Below, one piece after another: positions 14,485 through 37,123 of a stretch of DNA of 48,711 bases. The stretch spans positions 1 to 48,711 of the forward strand of contig CALIIW010000108.1 in assembly GCA_938018185.1 (NCBI GenBank), given 5' to 3'. Position numbers and translations under genes: made by a program. The notes under the pieces were generated by a model, which worked only from the letters and a program-made list of their open reading frames with translations, did no database searches and was not told the origin of the DNA. The first letter of the stretch is position 1. Every line of letters starts with the position of its first letter. This DNA is from an uncultured Saprospiraceae bacterium. Its GTDB lineage: Bacteria > Bacteroidota > Bacteroidia > Chitinophagales > Saprospiraceae.

Positions 14485-14523
14485 GTCAAAAAAAAAGGCC
14501 AAGCATAAAAAATGCTTGGCCTT
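14485..14523 (-). terminator. Terminator of the rpoB-rpoC operon
   Basis: On the - strand a perfect 12-bp stem, AAGGCCAAGCAT / ATGCTTGGCCTT, with a 5-base loop, is followed by a run of ten T. It stands 33 bases after the rpoC stop. Apart from it, the 14361-14555 gap shows nothing. Confidence 0.9.
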
Positions 14524-14555
14524 ATATAGGTTTTACGAATTACTTTTTAAAAAGT

Positions 14556-29147: not shown

Positions 29148-30035
29148 TTAATCTGCCTTTGGATGGGCTTGTTTATATACTTCTTTTAGTCTTTCTATTG
29201 AGTTATGTGTGTAAATCTGAGTGGCTGCTAAATTAGAATGCCCAAGTAATTCTTTGATGGCATTCAAATCGGCCCCATTATTTGATAAATGTGTCGCAAA
29301 TGAATGCCTTAATATATGTGGGCTTCTGTGTTCGTTTGTCGTAACTTTTGAGAGATACTTGTTTACTAAATTATAAACGAATTTTGGATAGAGTTTCTTG
29401 CCCTTAGCCGTTATAAATAAAAAATCATCATCCATTGATCCAAACTCCTTTTCTCGCAGATCTAGATAATCATTAAGTACTTCAGTCAAATCTTTCCCAA
29501 ATGGGATAATCCTTTCCTTAGATCTTTTACCAAGTACTTTCATTTCTTCTTTCAATAGATCTACATCACTAATTTTGAGATTGATAAGTTCAGCTCTTCT
29601 GAGACCACAATGATATAAAATAGAGAGTATTGCTTTATTCCTGCAGCCTTCAAAATCTAGTGAAAAAGGTATATCATTGAAAAGCCTATCTAGACTTTCT
29701 TCTTTAATGTAGTTAGGAAGGCGTTTCATCTCCTTTGGCGCCTGTACCTTGCGCATTGGGTTAAGCTCTATTTCAGAACGCTGGAGCAAGTATTTGTAGA
29801 AACTATTTAAACAAGATAATTTTCTGTTTATAGATTTTGCACTTATCTTTTGCTGCAGCATATCTACAATCCAAGACCTGATGTGAAAATGGTTCGCAGC
29901 TTTTAAATCCGTTATGCCGCTTTTTGTATCAAGAAATGTATGAAACTGTTCTAAATCTGTTTTGTAAGCTAAAACAGTGTGGGTGGAGAATCTCTTTTGA
30001 AATTCAAGATACTTATAGAAACTTTGCTTCAACAT
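29148..30035 (-). CDS. xerC: Tyrosine recombinase XerC-like
   Basis: This 295-residue protein has the two-domain Xer plan: a SAM-like DNA-binding domain (residues 1-85) and a catalytic domain. Active-site residues are R146 (HCGLRRAEL), a Lys near 170, H240 and R243 (HILRHSFATHL), H266 (LLGHSNLA) and the nucleophile Y275 (QIYTH). Xer recombinases resolve chromosome dimers at dif. The match to core XerC/D length, and its place beside hpf and the tRNA-tuf cluster, argue against a mobile-element integrase. No dif-like site was recognised nearby. XerC and XerD cannot be told apart with certainty from sequence alone. Confidence 0.88.
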   Translation of the reverse strand: MLKQSFYKYLEFQKRFSTHTVLAYKTDLEQFHTFLDTKSGITDLKAANHFHIRSWIVDMLQQKISAKSINRKLSCLNSFYKYLLQRSEIELNPMRKVQAPKEMKRLPNYIKEESLDRLFNDIPFSLDFEGCRNKAILSILYHCGLRRAELINLKISDVDLLKEEMKVLGKRSKERIIPFGKDLTEVLNDYLDLREKEFGSMDDDFLFITAKGKKLYPKFVYNLVNKYLSKVTTNEHRSPHILRHSFATHLSNNGADLNAIKELLGHSNLAATQIYTHNSIERLKEVYKQAHPKAD

Positions 30036-30132
30036 TTACTGTTTATTGGTATAATTTAGGTTTTTTGTGAATCAATTACAAGTCTTTTACGCATAAATAA
30101 GAGCCGATGAAAATAACGGCAAAATCAAAAAG

Positions 30133-30591
30133 ATGGCAAAATCAAAATCGACGATTAGAAAAGATAAGGATTTTTTAAAGAAACCCTATTACGAGGGAGG
30201 TCTGACTGCGATGCGTGAATTTATACGTCGTCAAATGAAATATCCGAAGGATGCTATTGACAAAAAAATTGAAGGTACCGTGCATGTTAATTATGCTGTA
30301 AGCGGCAGTGGCAAAGTCATCAAAACAAAAGTTGTTTCTGGAATTGGGTATGGTTGCAACGAAGAAGCGGAAAGAATCGTCAAACTTCTCAAATTCAAAA
30401 TGGATAAGATCCTTAAAAAGAAGGTGACTTTTAACAAAAAAATTAGAATAAACTTTAAGCTACCTAAGGCTGCTCCTAAGAAAAATCAATCTACTAGAAG
30501 TATTTCTTATACTGTTTCTCAATCAAAGAAGAAGGGTACTGTTGAGAAGAAAAAGCCAAAGCAATCTTATGGGTATACGATTCAGTTTTAG
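30133..30591 (+). CDS. TonB C-terminal-like protein without membrane anchor
   Basis: This 152-residue basic protein contains a TonB C-terminal-type fold at residues about 23-110: GGLTAMREFIRRQMKYPKDA, then EGTVHVNYAVSGSGKV and the closing KVTFNKKIRINFKL strand. True TonB proteins have an N-terminal membrane helix and a Pro-rich linker; here the N-terminus is MAKSKSTIRKDKDF, with no signal peptide or membrane segment. The last 40 residues are Lys/Ser-rich. No in-frame upstream start restores an anchor. It may be an isolated or cytoplasmic relative. It is divergent from xerC and followed by a hairpin. Confidence 0.7.
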   Translation: MAKSKSTIRKDKDFLKKPYYEGGLTAMREFIRRQMKYPKDAIDKKIEGTVHVNYAVSGSGKVIKTKVVSGIGYGCNEEAERIVKLLKFKMDKILKKKVTFNKKIRINFKLPKAAPKKNQSTRSISYTVSQSKKKGTVEKKKPKQSYGYTIQF

Positions 30592-30739
30592 GAACAACCT
30601 TATGTCTGATTGGAAACAAGAAGAATAAAGTTGATTTGGGACAGTCGAAATTAGAATCTATGACGTGCATCAGGGTATGCTCAGAAGCCACGGATTTTAG
30701 AGCATTTCCAAAGATCAAGTTTGTTTCAGAACATTTTTT

Positions 30740-30771
30740 AAAAAAAAACCTTCTCTTAAAAAAAGAGAAGG
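30740..30771 (-). terminator. Strong - strand terminator with no - strand gene in front of it
   Basis: The stem CCTTCTCTT / AAGAGAAGG with a 5-base loop is followed on the - strand by a run of nine T (30740-30748). In the + direction a smaller AAGGC-TTA-GCCTT hairpin and TTTTC follow, which may serve the TonB-like gene. Confidence 0.8.
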
Positions 30772-30947
30772 CCTAAGGCTTAGCCTTTTCATACTAACCC
30801 AATTTTGAAATCGCAATTTCTTATTATTACCCACGAATGGGTACGCAATCCTTGAAGGATCTATCTTATTCTTTTATGAAATGTTCTGGAATAACCGAAT
30901 GGTTATCTATGTAACGCATTAGAGCTTTTAGATGCTGCCATAAAAAA
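30740..30947 (-). ncRNA. Candidate structured small RNA
   Basis: Between two - strand terminators lie about 175 bases without an ORF. They contain three perfect short hairpins: 30828-30843 (TACCCA arms, UUCG loop on the - strand), 30848-30860 (ATCCT arms) and 30891-30906 (ATAACC arms). A TTTCATA / TATGAAA pair (30787-30793 with 30875-30881) can enclose the first two. This is what an independent small RNA would look like. No TAnnTTTG promoter was found on the - strand, and no match to tmRNA, RNase P or SRP RNA consensus was recognised. The strand is inferred from the terminators. Confidence 0.35.
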
Positions 30948-30977
30948 AGCCACACAGAATTGCTCCTGTGTGGCTTT
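30946..30977 (-). terminator. Terminator of the susC-susD operon
   Basis: A 12-bp stem, AAAGCCACACAG / CTGTGTGGCTTT, with an 8-base loop is followed on the - strand by a run of T (TTTTTTTATGG). It lies 18 bases after the stop of the last gene of the operon. Confidence 0.88.
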
Positions 30978-30994
30978 GTAGAATAATTATAAGT

Positions 30995-31798
30995 TTAATT
31001 TGTCAAAGGAGGCCAATCTGTTCCATCACCCCTAGTTAAGGTAGTAACTCCAAATTCACCATAAGTATTTGACCAAGATAAGGTTAGGTCAGCACCGTTC
31101 ACTTCAACATTAGTATATGACCAAGTATCATCATAATTGTCAAGTCCTAGTATAGATAATTTATTACAAAGATCGCTTAATTGTAAAGTACCCCATCCTG
31201 CTGCTGGACCACCATAGCAATTTTGATAAGTACCAAAAGCCCAATCATCGAAAGTATAGACACCTGCAGCAACCTCTGTAATGGTAGCTGTTCCAGTTTC
31301 TGGACCTGCCTCACAAAAATGATCAACTGTTGAGAATGCATATTCGCCAGCTAGCGTAGAAAGACAGGAAGCCTTAATATTTATAGTTCTTCTTGCTGTT
31401 CCTGTTATAGCAGTGAAGTTAAAATTGTCCCCAACTTCAATACCATTAATGTCAATACCTAGAGCCGTACAAGCTTCCGCTAAAGACGCAGTAAAATTGC
31501 CAGGATTTGCACTAGACCCAATAGAAACAGGTCCATGCGATCCTAGAGCCCCGCTGTAGTCAATCATGTAATCTGAGTTGCTAATTGCATCTCCCCCTTG
31601 ACCAACATCGAAACCAACAAAAGTGTTGTTTAGATCTCCTAAATCATAAAATCCAGGTTCAACATTTTGAAAGAAGAGCACAGTGCCACCTTCTGTAAAA
31701 AAGTCATCATCTTCAATATCTGAACATGATATCGTAAAAACCATAATTCCTAAAAAAGGAATAATCAGTTTTAAGCTATTTAAAATATTTTTCTTCAT
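30995..31798 (-). CDS. Surface lipoprotein of the SusCD operon
   Basis: This 267-residue protein has a lipoprotein signal: basic start, hydrophobic residues 8-22 and the lipobox TISC, with the Cys at 25, followed by an acidic DIEDDD stretch typical of the lipoprotein export signal of Bacteroidota surface lipoproteins. The mature part is beta-rich, with CSTLAGEYAF near residue 145 and a C-terminal WSYTNVEVNGADLTLSW segment. It is the last gene after susC, susD and a 230-residue protein; its ATG shares one base with the stop before it. By position it may be an extra ligand-binding lipoprotein, like SusE/SusF. I do not recognise its family. Confidence 0.72.
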   Translation of the reverse strand: MKKNILNSLKLIIPFLGIMVFTISCSDIEDDDFFTEGGTVLFFQNVEPGFYDLGDLNNTFVGFDVGQGGDAISNSDYMIDYSGALGSHGPVSIGSSANPGNFTASLAEACTALGIDINGIEVGDNFNFTAITGTARRTINIKASCLSTLAGEYAFSTVDHFCEAGPETGTATITEVAAGVYTFDDWAFGTYQNCYGGPAAGWGTLQLSDLCNKLSILGLDNYDDTWSYTNVEVNGADLTLSWSNTYGEFGVTTLTRGDGTDWPPLTN

Positions 31799-32490
31799 TA
31801 TTTTTTATTTAAAAAATTAAGGATTTTTATCAAATCTGATTCTTTTTTAAGATTCGATTTGTTTGCTTTAAAATAGGATCTTAGTTTCTTGTCTTTTGAA
31901 ATAAAATATTCTTTTAATTTTTTCTTATTTGTAGGAATTTCTTCCAATAAGCCATTAATAAAAAGATAATATTTTTCTTTCAAAACCACCTTATCATTAT
32001 AATTACCTGCATCTAATATCGGGTTATAATTTGATTTCAGATAAGAAGTCTCGTATCTTAAGTACAAGGAGATTTGATCTTTAACTAAGAGTTCTAGAAA
32101 TTCTAAACCTGGATTAGATAAATTAAATTTTTCGAAAAATCTATTCCCTTGGTCCGATTTCAAAATAAAAGCTTTGATATAAGTTGGAGGAATAGCCAAG
32201 ACATCCATACCTTCTTTAAGAAAGAGTTTTTTTGCCAATGGATCATACTTTATCAGGTATTTGTCGATCACCAAATCATTATTGGTGATTACATCAGCCT
32301 GAGTCCAATCTTCAGTTATCTGCGTATTATATTCAATCTCTTTTGTTCTCAAATCAAAAGTTTCCACATTTGCAGCGATGTACAAATCTTCAATGTCAAG
32401 TGTAAATAACCCGCCTGCATCTTGAGCATTAATTTGCAAAAGAAAGCCAACAAAAATTATTAAACAAAAATATTTTTTACACTTAATCAT
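31798..32490 (-). CDS. Hypothetical periplasmic protein of the SusCD operon
   Basis: I start at the ATG at 32490; a GTG nine codons upstream would overlap susD. The 230-residue protein has a signal peptide (hydrophobic residues 8-20, ending QINAQ). The rest is mixed: a beta part rich in Asp and Thr (LFTLDIEDLYIAANVETFDL), then Lys-rich helices to the end. It contains no Cys beyond the signal region and no motif that I recognise. It starts 11 bases after susD, and its stop overlaps the next start by one base, so it is surely co-transcribed. A role in handling the SusCD substrate is possible but inferred only from position. Confidence 0.65.
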   Translation of the reverse strand: MIKCKKYFCLIIFVGFLLQINAQDAGGLFTLDIEDLYIAANVETFDLRTKEIEYNTQITEDWTQADVITNNDLVIDKYLIKYDPLAKKLFLKEGMDVLAIPPTYIKAFILKSDQGNRFFEKFNLSNPGLEFLELLVKDQISLYLRYETSYLKSNYNPILDAGNYNDKVVLKEKYYLFINGLLEEIPTNKKKLKEYFISKDKKLRSYFKANKSNLKKESDLIKILNFLNKK

Positions 32491-32501
32491 CCTCTTAAAT
32501 T

Positions 32502-33866
32502 TTATTGGAACACCCACAATTTAGCGTCCAACAATGCACCACCTTGAGAAGCCTTCGCAGCTTCTACATTAGCACTATTTGTTGAAGATTCAGAACTAGG
32601 GTACAACCATCTTTGAGGGATGGCACCAGAAGGATTAGATCCATTTGAACCTCCAGTTTTTGGAGTCAAAGCAGGAAACCCAGTTCTTCTCCAGTTAGAC
32701 CAAGTCTCATGGAAGTTATATCCAAAATAAGCTTTATAAGCTTCAGACAATATTGCGTTAGTTTGATCACTAGTAGTTAAACCAGCAATATCTGCGGTAG
32801 CAGCAACTGAAGCAGAATCAGGCATAACACCTAAAGTTTCATAATTGGAATAAATAGCACTTGCCAAAGAGCTTGAAGGATCAGATCCAGCTTGGGCTTC
32901 ACATTCCGCCTTTATGAACATTAATTCTGTAAAACCAATCAAAGGTACAGTTGCGTCATTTTTCGTCCAGAAACCATCGATTGAACTTCCGTCCATGATA
33001 ACTGCCCCTCTAGGATCAGATTCCATTAAAGCAACAAAGCTCTCATCAATTCCCAAAGTACCACCTCTTTCAGAAGAAAAAGCTGCTAAAGACCAGTTTC
33101 CAGAATCTGTATCATCAAAAGTTAAATTTGATTGCTCCGCAGCATTTGCATAAGACATTCCAACAGAAGTTGCAGCTTTTGCAAAATTTGCAGGATCCTT
33201 TTTAGATAAGTGCAAATAAAATCTTGCTTTCAGACCATGAGCGGTTTTGATCCATAGATCAGGTTGCCCTGCTCCATCTGAATTTTCATATATCAAATCA
33301 CCACCTATATAGTCAGCAATACCATCTGTCTGTCCTAAGTGAGCAATTGCCTCATCTAATAATTTAAAGACTTCAGCATATAATGATTCTTGAGAATCAT
33401 AAGATGGTTGAATGTTGTCATTCCCTTGAAATGCTTGTGTCCAGGGCATGTCTCCAAAATAAGCGGTACCTAATCCTAACTGCTGAGCCATTATAATTTT
33501 AGCAACTCCTGAATAATAATTTCTATCTTCCTCAGCTGCTTTTTCAACCATGATTTTACATGATTTTAAAACACCAATATAAAGACCTGTTCTCCAGTAA
33601 TTATCAAAAGTATTTTCACCAAGAACATAAGTAGTATACTGTAATTGTTGTGCATCAATTCCTTCAAATTGTTGCATAACGATACCAGCCACTCTTGCTT
33701 GATTTCCACCTTCGTTATATGCAGCAGAAGCTATAGCTTCCGGCAAAATAAGGTTTAAACCAACATCAGTAGGTCTGGTAGGATCCGTGTTATATTCCTC
33801 CAAAGAAAGCTCACAATTGAAACATAAAAATGGAATAAGGAATATGAATATATATTTAAATTTCAT
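32502..33866 (-). CDS. SusD/RagB-family nutrient-binding outer membrane lipoprotein
   Basis: This 454-residue protein has a lipoprotein signal (residues 2-17, lipobox CFNC with the Cys at 18) and then the LSLEEYNTDPTRPTDV opening characteristic of the SusD-like subgroup that begins with an N-T-D/N-P motif. Helical TPR-like segments follow (YIGVLKSCKIMVEKAAEED, DLWIKTAHGLKARFYLHLSKKD). The end, with WRRTGFPALTP and a IPQRWLYPSSE segment, is a hallmark of this family. SusD lids the SusC channel at the cell surface and captures ligand. It starts 17 bases after susC. The substrate is unknown: no glycoside hydrolase, peptidase or other enzyme is beside it. Confidence 0.93.
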   Translation of the reverse strand: MKFKYIFIFLIPFLCFNCELSLEEYNTDPTRPTDVGLNLILPEAIASAAYNEGGNQARVAGIVMQQFEGIDAQQLQYTTYVLGENTFDNYWRTGLYIGVLKSCKIMVEKAAEEDRNYYSGVAKIIMAQQLGLGTAYFGDMPWTQAFQGNDNIQPSYDSQESLYAEVFKLLDEAIAHLGQTDGIADYIGGDLIYENSDGAGQPDLWIKTAHGLKARFYLHLSKKDPANFAKAATSVGMSYANAAEQSNLTFDDTDSGNWSLAAFSSERGGTLGIDESFVALMESDPRGAVIMDGSSIDGFWTKNDATVPLIGFTELMFIKAECEAQAGSDPSSSLASAIYSNYETLGVMPDSASVAATADIAGLTTSDQTNAILSEAYKAYFGYNFHETWSNWRRTGFPALTPKTGGSNGSNPSGAIPQRWLYPSSESSTNSANVEAAKASQGGALLDAKLWVFQ

Positions 33867-33883: not shown

Positions 33884-36800
33884 TTAAAATGTAAATTTCA
33901 CACTAGCTACATAAGATTTTGTGTTTGGCATATTGAAATAATCCAAACCAAATCCATTAGAGTCACCAGTCAAGTTCGTTTCTGGATCAACACCTGGGTA
34001 CTTCGTACTTAACCAAAGATTTCTTCCAGTCAAAGTAATACCAATTCCTTCAAATGGTGAATTTTCCATTTTACTCTTAGGGATGTCAAAGCCTAAAGAA
34101 AGCTCTCTTAATCTAATCCAAGAAGCATCATAGATATTCATTTCACCAATTCCTCCAAAACCGTATTTCACTCTGTAATATTCTCCAAAACCTACAGATT
34201 CATCTGCATCCCCTAAAGCAACAGGTAAGCTATTTGTTTCATAAACTGGGTTTTCAGTAGAACCAGTATTCACTACTCCTTCAAAGACAACAACATCTCC
34301 TCTTTCATCAGCTGAAAGCTGAGAAGTTCCGAAGTAATTCATGATACCACAGGTACCACACCATACTTGACCACCTTCTCTGACATCAAATAAAACACCA
34401 AGGCTTATACCTTTGAACGAAAGTGTATTTCTAAGCCCTAAAGTCCAATCTGGATTCGGATCTCCTAAAACTTTTTCAGTAGGATCTGTTAATGGCCATC
34501 CATCAGAACCAACTATTACATCTCCACCTTCAGTTCTTTGCCAACCGGTTCCAAAAATCACACCGTATGGTTGACCAGCTACAACTTCAGAAGAAGTTGA
34601 TGTAAAACCAGAAAGTCCGATAGATTCGATACCTTCAGCCAAAGCCACAACATTGTTTTCTATTTTAGTAAAGTTTGCAGCAATATTCCATTCGAAATTA
34701 TTATTTCTTACTGGAGAAAAATCAGCTGTTATCTCCCAACCTTTGTTTTCAATTTCTGCAGCATTTTGCGTAATGTTTCCATAACCTGTTGCTCCTGAAA
34801 GTTGTACATCAATGATTACATCTCTTGATTGCGCATTGAAATAAGTCACATCCAAGCCAATTCTTCCTTTCCATAATTTGAATTCACCACCAACTTCGAA
34901 AGTAGTAGTTGTCTCAGGAGTTAAAGAGTTATTTCCTAACAAACCAGATCTTTCAAAAGAATTTACACCAAAAGCAGGGAAAGATAAATCTTCAATAAAT
35001 CCATCTCCTCCTGAAGCTGCAGGATTGTAGTAACTGATGGTTCTATAATTTAAGGCATCGTTTCCTACTGATCCATAGGATGCTCTCAACTTACCATATG
35101 AAAGGAAATCATTTTTTGTAAATCCTGCTAATTCCGTAAAGGCAAAACCTAAACTAACTGAATAAGATTGGTAAGTATTATTGTCTGCTGGTAATGTAGA
35201 AGACCAATCATTTCTAAAAGTAAGATTAGCGAATAAGAAATCACTAAATCCTAAATCTGCTGTTAAATAAGCACCATGAATTCTTTTTCTGAAGATACCT
35301 TCTCCAGCTTGAACATCCGTAGCATTTGAGATATTGAAGAATCCAGGAATTGCGAAAGTAGTTCCATTAGCCCATTTGTTTGTCAATTGATGTTGCCAAA
35401 CATTATGTCCTAGGATCGCTCCAAAACTAAAATTGTCAAATTGCTTATTAAAGTTTAAGAAGATATCAGAGTTGATATCTTTGTTATTGTATGTCTCTTG
35501 GTACAATTGTCCCGTAAGACCTCTATTCAATTCAACATCTATAGCAGCTTTTCTTTCATCTGTGTATTGATCTAAACCAAGTTTGTAATTAACTGATAAA
35601 TTACTTGTTAATTCATAACCAAGCTTAGCAGATCCAATAATTCTATTTACATTATCTGTAGAAGGGTTTCTATTGACAGTCCAATAAGGATTGTCATAAA
35701 TTCCGTGTCTATAAGATCTTTGAGTTCCATCAGAAAACAAATAAGTATCTGGATCATCGGCAGCCGCTTGGCCTTCTAAACCATTACCAATATCAAATGT
35801 TGGGGTATTTCTTAACATCCCTAACATGACACCAGATAGGTTCGATCCTCTTTGTATTCTAGTTCCACCAGAGTTGATATAATTTGCTGACATTCCAGCA
35901 GTTAATTTTTCTGTAACATTAATATTTGTATTCACTCTAAACGAGGTTCTATCAAATGTTGCATTTGGAACGACTCCTTCAGAAGTAAGACGACCAGCAG
36001 AAATATAGTAATTTCCTAATTTTGAACCTCCAGAAACTGAAGCATTCAAATCAGCTGTCTGACCAGTTTTGAAAAAAGTGTACGGATCGTAGACGTTTGC
36101 AGCTTGTCCATTACCTGTACCTTTTGCAACTAATCTTCCATTTTTATCAAATGGATAATCAGTTGCACCATCATACTCTAGCTCAGAAATTTTAGGTCCC
36201 CAAGAGAAACCATCACGTGTATCTGGGCCTCGATATACGCCTGTTCTTCCTTGTGCATAAGTGGATTGTCTAGCAGGTAACTGAGATACCTGATCGAAAG
36301 ACATAGATGCTCCAATTGAAACTTGAGGCTTTCCTTCTTTACCTTTTTTTGTTGTAATAACAATTGCTCCGTTTGCAGCTCTTACACCATAAAGTGCTGT
36401 TGCAGCAGCCCCCTTAAGTACCGTCATTGAAGCGATATCGTTAGAGTTGATATCAACCACACGGTTAGAAAAATCGACACCATCAGTGCCATCTCCGTTT
36501 CCATAATCGGAAGCATTTGAACTATTGTCAATTGGTACCCCATCAATAACAAACAATGGAGAGTTATTTCCATTAATAGAGGAGGAACCTCTAATCCGAA
36601 TGTTAGAGGAAGCACCTGGTGATCCAGATGAACTTGTAACAGTAACACCTGCAACCTTCGAACTCAAAGCATTTACCAAGTTTACTTCTTTTGCCCCTGT
36701 TATCTCGTCGGCATCAACATTCTGTACAGCATAACCTAGTCGAGCTCTATTTGCTTCAAGACCAGTTGCTGTTACAACAATTTCAGAAAGTTCAACACCT

Positions 36801-37084
36801 TCTGAAAGTACAATATCCATTACATTAGAAGCACCTAGGGCAATTTCTTGTGTAACAAATCCTGTATAACTGTAAATTAATGTGTTTACATCATCTGGAA
36901 CGTTCAAAGAATATGTTCCATCAATGTCTGTGACTGTACCTACTGAGGTACCTTTAGCGATAATACTTGCACCTATTAAAGGTTCTCCAGTATTATCAGT
37001 GAGCGTTCCGGATACTGTTCTTTGCGCAAAAGATAGACTTATTGCAAAGATAAGCATGAACAACACTAGCGAGAGTTTTTTCAT
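33884..37084 (-). CDS. SusC/RagA-family TonB-dependent transporter
   Basis: This 1066-residue outer membrane receptor has a signal peptide (residues 1-20, SFAQ). A carboxypeptidase-regulatory-like domain (VSGTLTDNTGEPLIGASI through about residue 95) follows, then a short TonB-box region (LSEIVVTATG), the plug (VNALSSKVAGV, IRIRGSSSINGNNSPLFVIDGVPID) and a 22-strand barrel that ends YVASVKFTF with a terminal Phe. It imports large nutrients together with SusD, driven by TonB. Length is typical. No ECF sigma/anti-sigma pair or hybrid two-component regulator lies beside it, so its regulation is not evident from this window. Confidence 0.96.
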   Translation of the reverse strand: MKKLSLVLFMLIFAISLSFAQRTVSGTLTDNTGEPLIGASIIAKGTSVGTVTDIDGTYSLNVPDDVNTLIYSYTGFVTQEIALGASNVMDIVLSEGVELSEIVVTATGLEANRARLGYAVQNVDADEITGAKEVNLVNALSSKVAGVTVTSSSGSPGASSNIRIRGSSSINGNNSPLFVIDGVPIDNSSNASDYGNGDGTDGVDFSNRVVDINSNDIASMTVLKGAAATALYGVRAANGAIVITTKKGKEGKPQVSIGASMSFDQVSQLPARQSTYAQGRTGVYRGPDTRDGFSWGPKISELEYDGATDYPFDKNGRLVAKGTGNGQAANVYDPYTFFKTGQTADLNASVSGGSKLGNYYISAGRLTSEGVVPNATFDRTSFRVNTNINVTEKLTAGMSANYINSGGTRIQRGSNLSGVMLGMLRNTPTFDIGNGLEGQAAADDPDTYLFSDGTQRSYRHGIYDNPYWTVNRNPSTDNVNRIIGSAKLGYELTSNLSVNYKLGLDQYTDERKAAIDVELNRGLTGQLYQETYNNKDINSDIFLNFNKQFDNFSFGAILGHNVWQHQLTNKWANGTTFAIPGFFNISNATDVQAGEGIFRKRIHGAYLTADLGFSDFLFANLTFRNDWSSTLPADNNTYQSYSVSLGFAFTELAGFTKNDFLSYGKLRASYGSVGNDALNYRTISYYNPAASGGDGFIEDLSFPAFGVNSFERSGLLGNNSLTPETTTTFEVGGEFKLWKGRIGLDVTYFNAQSRDVIIDVQLSGATGYGNITQNAAEIENKGWEITADFSPVRNNNFEWNIAANFTKIENNVVALAEGIESIGLSGFTSTSSEVVAGQPYGVIFGTGWQRTEGGDVIVGSDGWPLTDPTEKVLGDPNPDWTLGLRNTLSFKGISLGVLFDVREGGQVWCGTCGIMNYFGTSQLSADERGDVVVFEGVVNTGSTENPVYETNSLPVALGDADESVGFGEYYRVKYGFGGIGEMNIYDASWIRLRELSLGFDIPKSKMENSPFEGIGITLTGRNLWLSTKYPGVDPETNLTGDSNGFGLDYFNMPNTKSYVASVKFTF

Positions 37085-37123
37085 ATTAATCCAATTTTGA
37101 TTAGTAAATAATTCTTAACTAGC

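Follow-up and report, generated by a model that had tools for sequence, protein, structure and literature searches.

A possible mimic of the susC translation start next to a susCD operon, apparently within an RNA circuit acting on nutrient uptake in a Saprospiraceae bacterium

The 48,711-nucleotide stretch of DNA analysed here (the window), from the genome of an uncultured Saprospiraceae bacterium (G000), contains a near copy of a susC translation start in the spacer behind a susCD operon, close to a strong terminator. We tentatively read this element as a minus-strand mimic of the susC start that could titrate small RNAs (sRNAs) directed against susC, an explanation that we place first while holding it at somewhat under an even chance. 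The locus apparently belongs to an RNA circuit acting on nutrient uptake. SusC transporters are main gates for polymer uptake in Bacteroidota. The features on which the analysis relies are the following.

30946-30977, minus strand: stem of the first terminator, directly 3' of the last operon gene (terminator scan)
30746-30774, minus strand: strong stem of the second terminator, with nine T at 30740-30748 (terminator scan)
33884..37084, minus strand: susC-type gene with TonB-dependent receptor plug and carboxypeptidase-regulatory domains; start motif at 37079-37097
32502..33866, minus strand: susD-type gene with a SusD-like_2 domain
30133..30591, plus strand: gene with a TonB_C domain, converging on the element
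30828..30843, minus strand: hairpin UACCCA-UUCG-UGGGUA, 6 bp with a UUCG loop (read by eye), possibly forming the 5' end of the minus-strand RNA
30787..30805, minus strand: copy of the susC translation start, AAATTGGGTTAGTATGAAA; its plus-strand reading is an anti-susC seed
30786..30817 (approximate, from sequence), minus strand: 32-nt run identical in G001, a genome of the same genus

The copy AAATTGGGTTAGTATGAAA differs from the susC start in two changes and lies 6.3 kb from it. When up to two mismatches were allowed, the susC start was its sole other match in the genome. In other genomes, the motif is a common susC start, AAATTGGATTAGTATGAAA, and 60 genomes gave 36 matches in 19 genomes with up to two mismatches, compared with 9 for the reversed pattern. 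Searching the 60 related genomes with the spacer returned one strong match outside its own genome, in G001: query positions 118-205, adjoining the second terminator, matched at 86% (E 1.8e-21), and the next best match had E 3.6e-4. The motif of the copy came back among the weaker matches. The two genomes share the 32-nt identical run, their neighbouring proteins are 61-79% identical, and the remaining spacer aligns poorly. A susC pseudogene was considered and rejected, as the likeness to susC does not extend beyond about 20 nt and a 2-nt indel distinguishing G000 from G001 disrupts the frame. Since this difference falls just after ATGAAA and shifts the frame, the copy does not look like coding sequence.

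The element has three homologues, in G000, G001 and G004, and is syntenic among them, adjoining TonB_C, xerD-like (phage integrase family) and S30AE genes. It sits at the end of the susCD operon and on the same strand in G000 and G001, while in G004 an opposite-strand gene lies between operon and element. A strong terminator on the susC-sense strand follows the copy in all three loci, being the one sense-strand terminator found in each of the G001 and G004 spacers, and no terminator was found on the other (antisense) side of the seed in the window, G001 or G004.

The terminator scan of positions 29500-32500 detected three terminator-like sites, all on the minus strand (shuffles 1.4 ± 1.4), the third of which (30768-30787) overlaps the second terminator; the plus strand of this region yielded none. 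A first-pass annotation of the window had described two minus-strand terminators without a gene between them, which the scan and the lack of any ORF of at least 50 aa between the two corroborated. Its remark that the second terminator has nothing obvious to end is right for the window and does not extend to G001, where no terminator other than the equivalent one was found between the operon's last gene and the gene that follows, so that it can end the operon. In the window, the two operon proteins encoded after susD (30995-31798 and 31798-32490, minus strand) had no Pfam match at E 0.001, and the G001 operon ends with an extra relative of the second of them.

At gathering scores, the Rfam scan of the whole window revealed five tRNAs and nothing else. 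The same annotation had called for such a scan, and no family passed its cut-off at the element; at E up to 10, nothing convincing was obtained in the window region. Matches to rnk_leader, PyrR and csRNA were discarded, since they look like terminator or anti-start likeness. The element is conserved and apparently non-coding. Scanning the spacer for promoters of sigma-70 type gave none; a home-made Bacteroidota-type scan also gave none there, a result that says little because the scan is loose (62 and 53 sites window-wide).

The first-pass annotation had proposed a new structured RNA on the minus strand, stressing the number of clean hairpins as unusual. The hairpins are present by eye, including the one with the UUCG loop at 30828-30843. 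The fold of the 208-nt stretch gave z = -2.41, with 4 of 200 shuffles as good, and that of the stretch without the second terminator z = -1.15, with 25 of 200 shuffles as good, which is within chance. As the fold without this terminator was not better than shuffles, the hairpins alone are no evidence of a structured RNA. The TTTCATA/TATGAAA pair, described there as able to enclose two of the hairpins, is absent from the minimum-energy fold, TATGAAA being the start-codon part of the susC-start copy. What remains of the proposal is a conserved, apparently non-coding element with a minus-strand layout that is similar in three genomes, in keeping with a minus-strand RNA; its signal resides not in the hairpins but in the susC-start copy, which is also readable from the plus strand. 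We regard it as highly improbable that the element is a structured RNA defined by its hairpins and unrelated to susC: the clean hairpins and the terminator would suit such an RNA, but the fold is ordinary once the terminator is removed, and the conserved part is the susC-start copy with its excess of matches over the reversed pattern.

The 107-nt 3' part including the terminator folded with z = -3.31. The sense RNAs of the three genomes gave z of -3.31, -3.10 and -3.10 against shuffles and share one order of parts: a 5' hairpin, the susC-like motif region, a GGC-GCC mini-hairpin (or an alternative pairing) and the terminator. The minimum-energy fold of the window has part of the motif paired with the mini-hairpin stretch, and that of G004 leaves the motif open.

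According to the preferred mimic reading, the minus strand would produce an RNA of roughly 100 nt, from about 30846 to 30740, either driven by its own promoter or arising as the read-through 3' end of the susCD operon. In this RNA, the susC ribosome-binding and start region would be reproduced immediately ahead of the strong terminator. Acting as a sponge, it would pair with an anti-susC sRNA complementary to exactly the susC-start region, and titration of that sRNA would be expected to spare susC translation.

Candidate partners belong to an antisense sRNA family, apparently not yet filed in databases, in which a complement of the susC start is followed by a terminator. The motif was located at 45 places in 40 regions, and at 20 of these places no ORF of more than 80 aa began. 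By eye, 14 of these showed the complement TTCATACTAATCCAATTT, or a near form, and then a terminator hairpin with a T-run, 4 had a sense-side terminator instead, and 2 had no terminator on either strand (L075 and L101, set aside). A covariance model built from 10 hand-picked antisense-type loci (R1) matched, at E up to 0.01, at least 83 of 248 genomes of the window's bacterial family (Saprospiraceae, judging by named records), some of the matches being susC starts read backwards. The aligned family comprises 76 members from 53 genomes and 30 genera, drawn from among the matches listed and complemented by four loci of genus g1 added by hand (27.9 to 34.4 bits); G137:C430 (start of a long ORF) and G152:C621 (not fetched) were left out despite E up to 1e-4. 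The stem of the family is 95.4% paired and covaries strongly, covariation being the property by which the first-pass annotation wanted its own proposal judged: the score was 0.932 as compared with 0.279 for shuffled alignments, and slid versions did not exceed 0.338 in two runs (0.189 in the second). CATACTA occurs in 69 of the 76 members and TTTTTCATACTA in 57. A terminator hairpin with a T-run directly follows the seed in 75 of 76, partly by construction, because the R1 loci were hand-picked as antisense-type. A model-free pattern (antisense seed plus T6) was found in 12 of 248 genomes against 0 for the control; among these places, the one in G001 is susC itself and one in G164 lacks a clear hairpin. 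In G082, the predicted pairing of the sRNA with a susC start reached -66.6 kcal/mol, against -27.5 ± 4.2 when shuffled.

Named public records carrying the seed or a susC start amounted to 23 stretches: 17 labelled as Saprospiraceae, 2 each as Lewinella and Flavilitoribacter, 1 as Bacteroidetes and 1, perhaps a chance match, as Thermodesulfobacteriaceae. No viral contig carried the seed. When R1 was run across the order with E up to 1e-4, it matched 1 of 159 genomes, a member of the same bacterial family; this search bounds the range loosely because many same-family genomes were sampled and the filters were strict.

The family resembles a known regulator. In its passages on FopS, a published account of sRNA control of the SusC translation start in Bacteroides (PMC11697453) describes this sRNA as repressing SusC-type transporters by pairing with their translation start, with a seed in its single-stranded 5' part and a terminator, and reports it as conserved within Bacteroidaceae; there, GibS appears as a Bacteroides sRNA sharing part of its seed with FopS. 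As far as those passages go, FopS (RF04319, BTncRNA_FopS) and the antisense family are alike in having a single-stranded seed (U-tract, CAU and leader complement) followed by an intrinsic terminator, and several copies in some genomes, whereas the leader complement differs. The FopS model gave 22.4 bits for the antisense member L161 (cut-off 56), no match at gathering score in 10 antisense member loci, and none over the cut-off in 40 relatives, 27 of which matched at E up to 1. The best match among these relatives was L231 (G051:C3:156885-156953; 44.1 bits, E 3.1e-5), from the same order. With E up to 10 allowed, FopS was absent from the Rfam matches of the window region, and GibS (RF04182) scored 16.8 bits on the window minus strand (cut-off 115, E 6.3). 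Read in the FopS layout, the window has its seed on the plus strand and no plus-strand terminator after it; unlike FopS, it carries a sense copy before a terminator.

In five of the six genomes of the window's genus, the antisense RNA follows a small ORF, whose stop it trails by 6 to 11 nt, downstream of a gene for a pseudouridine synthase. This ORF, of 50-52 codons, is conserved behind the gene in all six (L158 = G000:C290, L073, L076, L147, L148 and L159). G000 has kept the small ORF, and the anti-susC seed after its stop is missing. A pattern search of the whole G000 assembly gave the window element and susC as the zero-mismatch places among the matches listed, the others carrying two or three mismatches (179 places against 99 for the reversed control). 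With the small-ORF seed missing and this search result, the element is the only such seed found in G000. The antisense sRNA that the mimic would capture was not found in G000 (assembly 91.9% complete); G001 and G004 have it.

These observations bear on two further explanations. One is that the plus strand is the active one, encoding an antisense sRNA that may be the 3' end of the mRNA of the TonB_C gene and whose seed would block the susC start as FopS does in Bacteroides; we consider this possible, although rather unlikely. Antisense loci greatly outnumber sense loci, related seeds in the genus sit in the 3' region of the small-ORF gene, the one in G000 has been lost with the window copy as the only one found there, and the 3' end of the mRNA of the converging TonB_C gene would include the plus-strand seed. 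The seed TTTCATACTAAYCCAATTT of the family is present at 30787-30805 read on the plus strand, and R1 matched plus-strand positions 30778-30826 with 25.4 bits (E 0.00098 in the window, E 0.101 in the genome), a weak score because an unrelated minus-strand site, 14489-14549, matched at 20.4 bits. Against this explanation, the seed is not followed by a terminator in any of the three syntenic loci, it has two A-C mismatches against the G000 susC, and no promoter like those before other antisense members was seen.

The other explanation, which we judge unlikely, is a relic, in which an antisense sRNA locus has decayed, is overlapped by the end of the susCD operon on its 3' side and no longer has a function. 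The antisense terminator missing at the window copy and the loss of the rluA-linked seed in G000, where susC and the copy have both diverged, would agree with decay. The identical 32-nt run in G001, next to proteins of 61-79% identity and in a spacer that otherwise aligns poorly, speaks against a relic.

The mimic reading gains from loci of the same kind elsewhere. A sense copy followed by six T was found in 6 of 248 genomes, with 0 for the control. Clear terminator hairpins followed it at four places, namely those in the window, G001 and G127 and one of two in G131. The second place in G131 is an antisense member, that in G190 is a susC gene and that in G156 has a weak hairpin. Similar sense loci, with a mismatch or other spacing, occur in G004, G027, G006 and G024. 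Those of G006, G024 and G131, representing three genera, adjoin homologous kinase genes (GHMP_kinases_N; the other two proteins are 60% and 51% identical to that of G024) and give weaker support, because the hairpin there could serve as the terminator of the kinase gene as well. Antisense members are also present in G001, G004, G127, G131, G006, G024 and G027. A sense-side terminator was detected at 20 of the 76 antisense members as compared with 7 of 380 shuffles, which keep base composition only. Convergent neighbours could be the cause of such terminators; a convergent gene is found at 13 of these 20 members, about the same share as for all members (49 of 76).

We have compared the predicted pairings. 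In G001, the core pairing of the antisense RNA was better with the mimic than with susC (-36.3 vs -24.4 kcal/mol), whereas in G004 the order was reversed (-22.0 vs -28.4 kcal/mol). The core pairing of the plus strand with susC gave -22.6 (G000), -24.7 (G001) and -27.7 kcal/mol (G004). For longer sequences, the mimic and the antisense RNA reached -53.3 in G001 (-26.6 ± 4.5 shuffled) and -41.5 in G004 (-31.1 ± 4.7). The corresponding values for the plus strand with susC were -41.9 kcal/mol in G000 (-23.2 ± 4.5 shuffled), which speaks for the plus-strand explanation, -41.3 in G001 (-28.9 ± 5.1) and -37.9 in G004 (-29.6 ± 4.1). The core pairing energies do not decide the active strand; the terminators favour the minus strand, and the lack of the partner sRNA in G000 favours the plus strand.

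Overall, the mimic reading is supported by the copy itself, which is conserved and syntenic in G001 and G004, by the terminators, by the antisense family with its covarying stem, by the loci elsewhere that combine a sense copy with a terminator, and by the G001 pairing; transcription, the active strand, pairing in the cell and any effect on susC are inferred from these. The partner sRNA missing from G000, the lack of an identified promoter and the G004 energies weigh against it. A broader proposal, which we advance with a little more reserve, is that susC is under a two-sided RNA circuit in Saprospiraceae-type bacteria, made of widespread antisense sRNAs covering the susC start and rarer sense mimics titrating them, the window element being one of the latter. 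Some mimics would lie where the susCD operon itself ends, and transcription of such an uptake operon would then relieve its repression.

Sponge or decoy RNAs in which a transcript piece imitates the target of an sRNA include SroC and the chbBC decoy of ChiX; with such RNAs, an operon that is transcribed can relieve its own repression. The element in the window would likewise imitate a target; the sequences and the phylum are others, and its predicted mimic is a near copy of the target start directly before a terminator. Our literature search found no report joining Saprospiraceae, sRNA and SusC, and the titles and abstract starts among the matches listed mentioned neither such a sponge in connection with Bacteroides and SusC nor an antisense RNA of this kind against susC starts. 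If other Bacteroidota have a FopS-like family with a seed of its own, antisense control of susC starts would be a more widespread strategy, perhaps one that evolved repeatedly, and sense mimics would add a counter-regulator to it. The core claim is testable, because the named species Flavilitoribacter nigricans DSM 23189 has both an antisense member (on NZ_PDUD01000026.1) and a susC with a matching start (on NZ_PDUD01000011.1).

Many antisense members are preceded by promoter-like blocks, read by eye, for example GGAACTAAT just before GAGAG or TTGGCC and then GCAACATTT. At L167, L185 and L177, two antisense members stand in tandem within about 130 bases.
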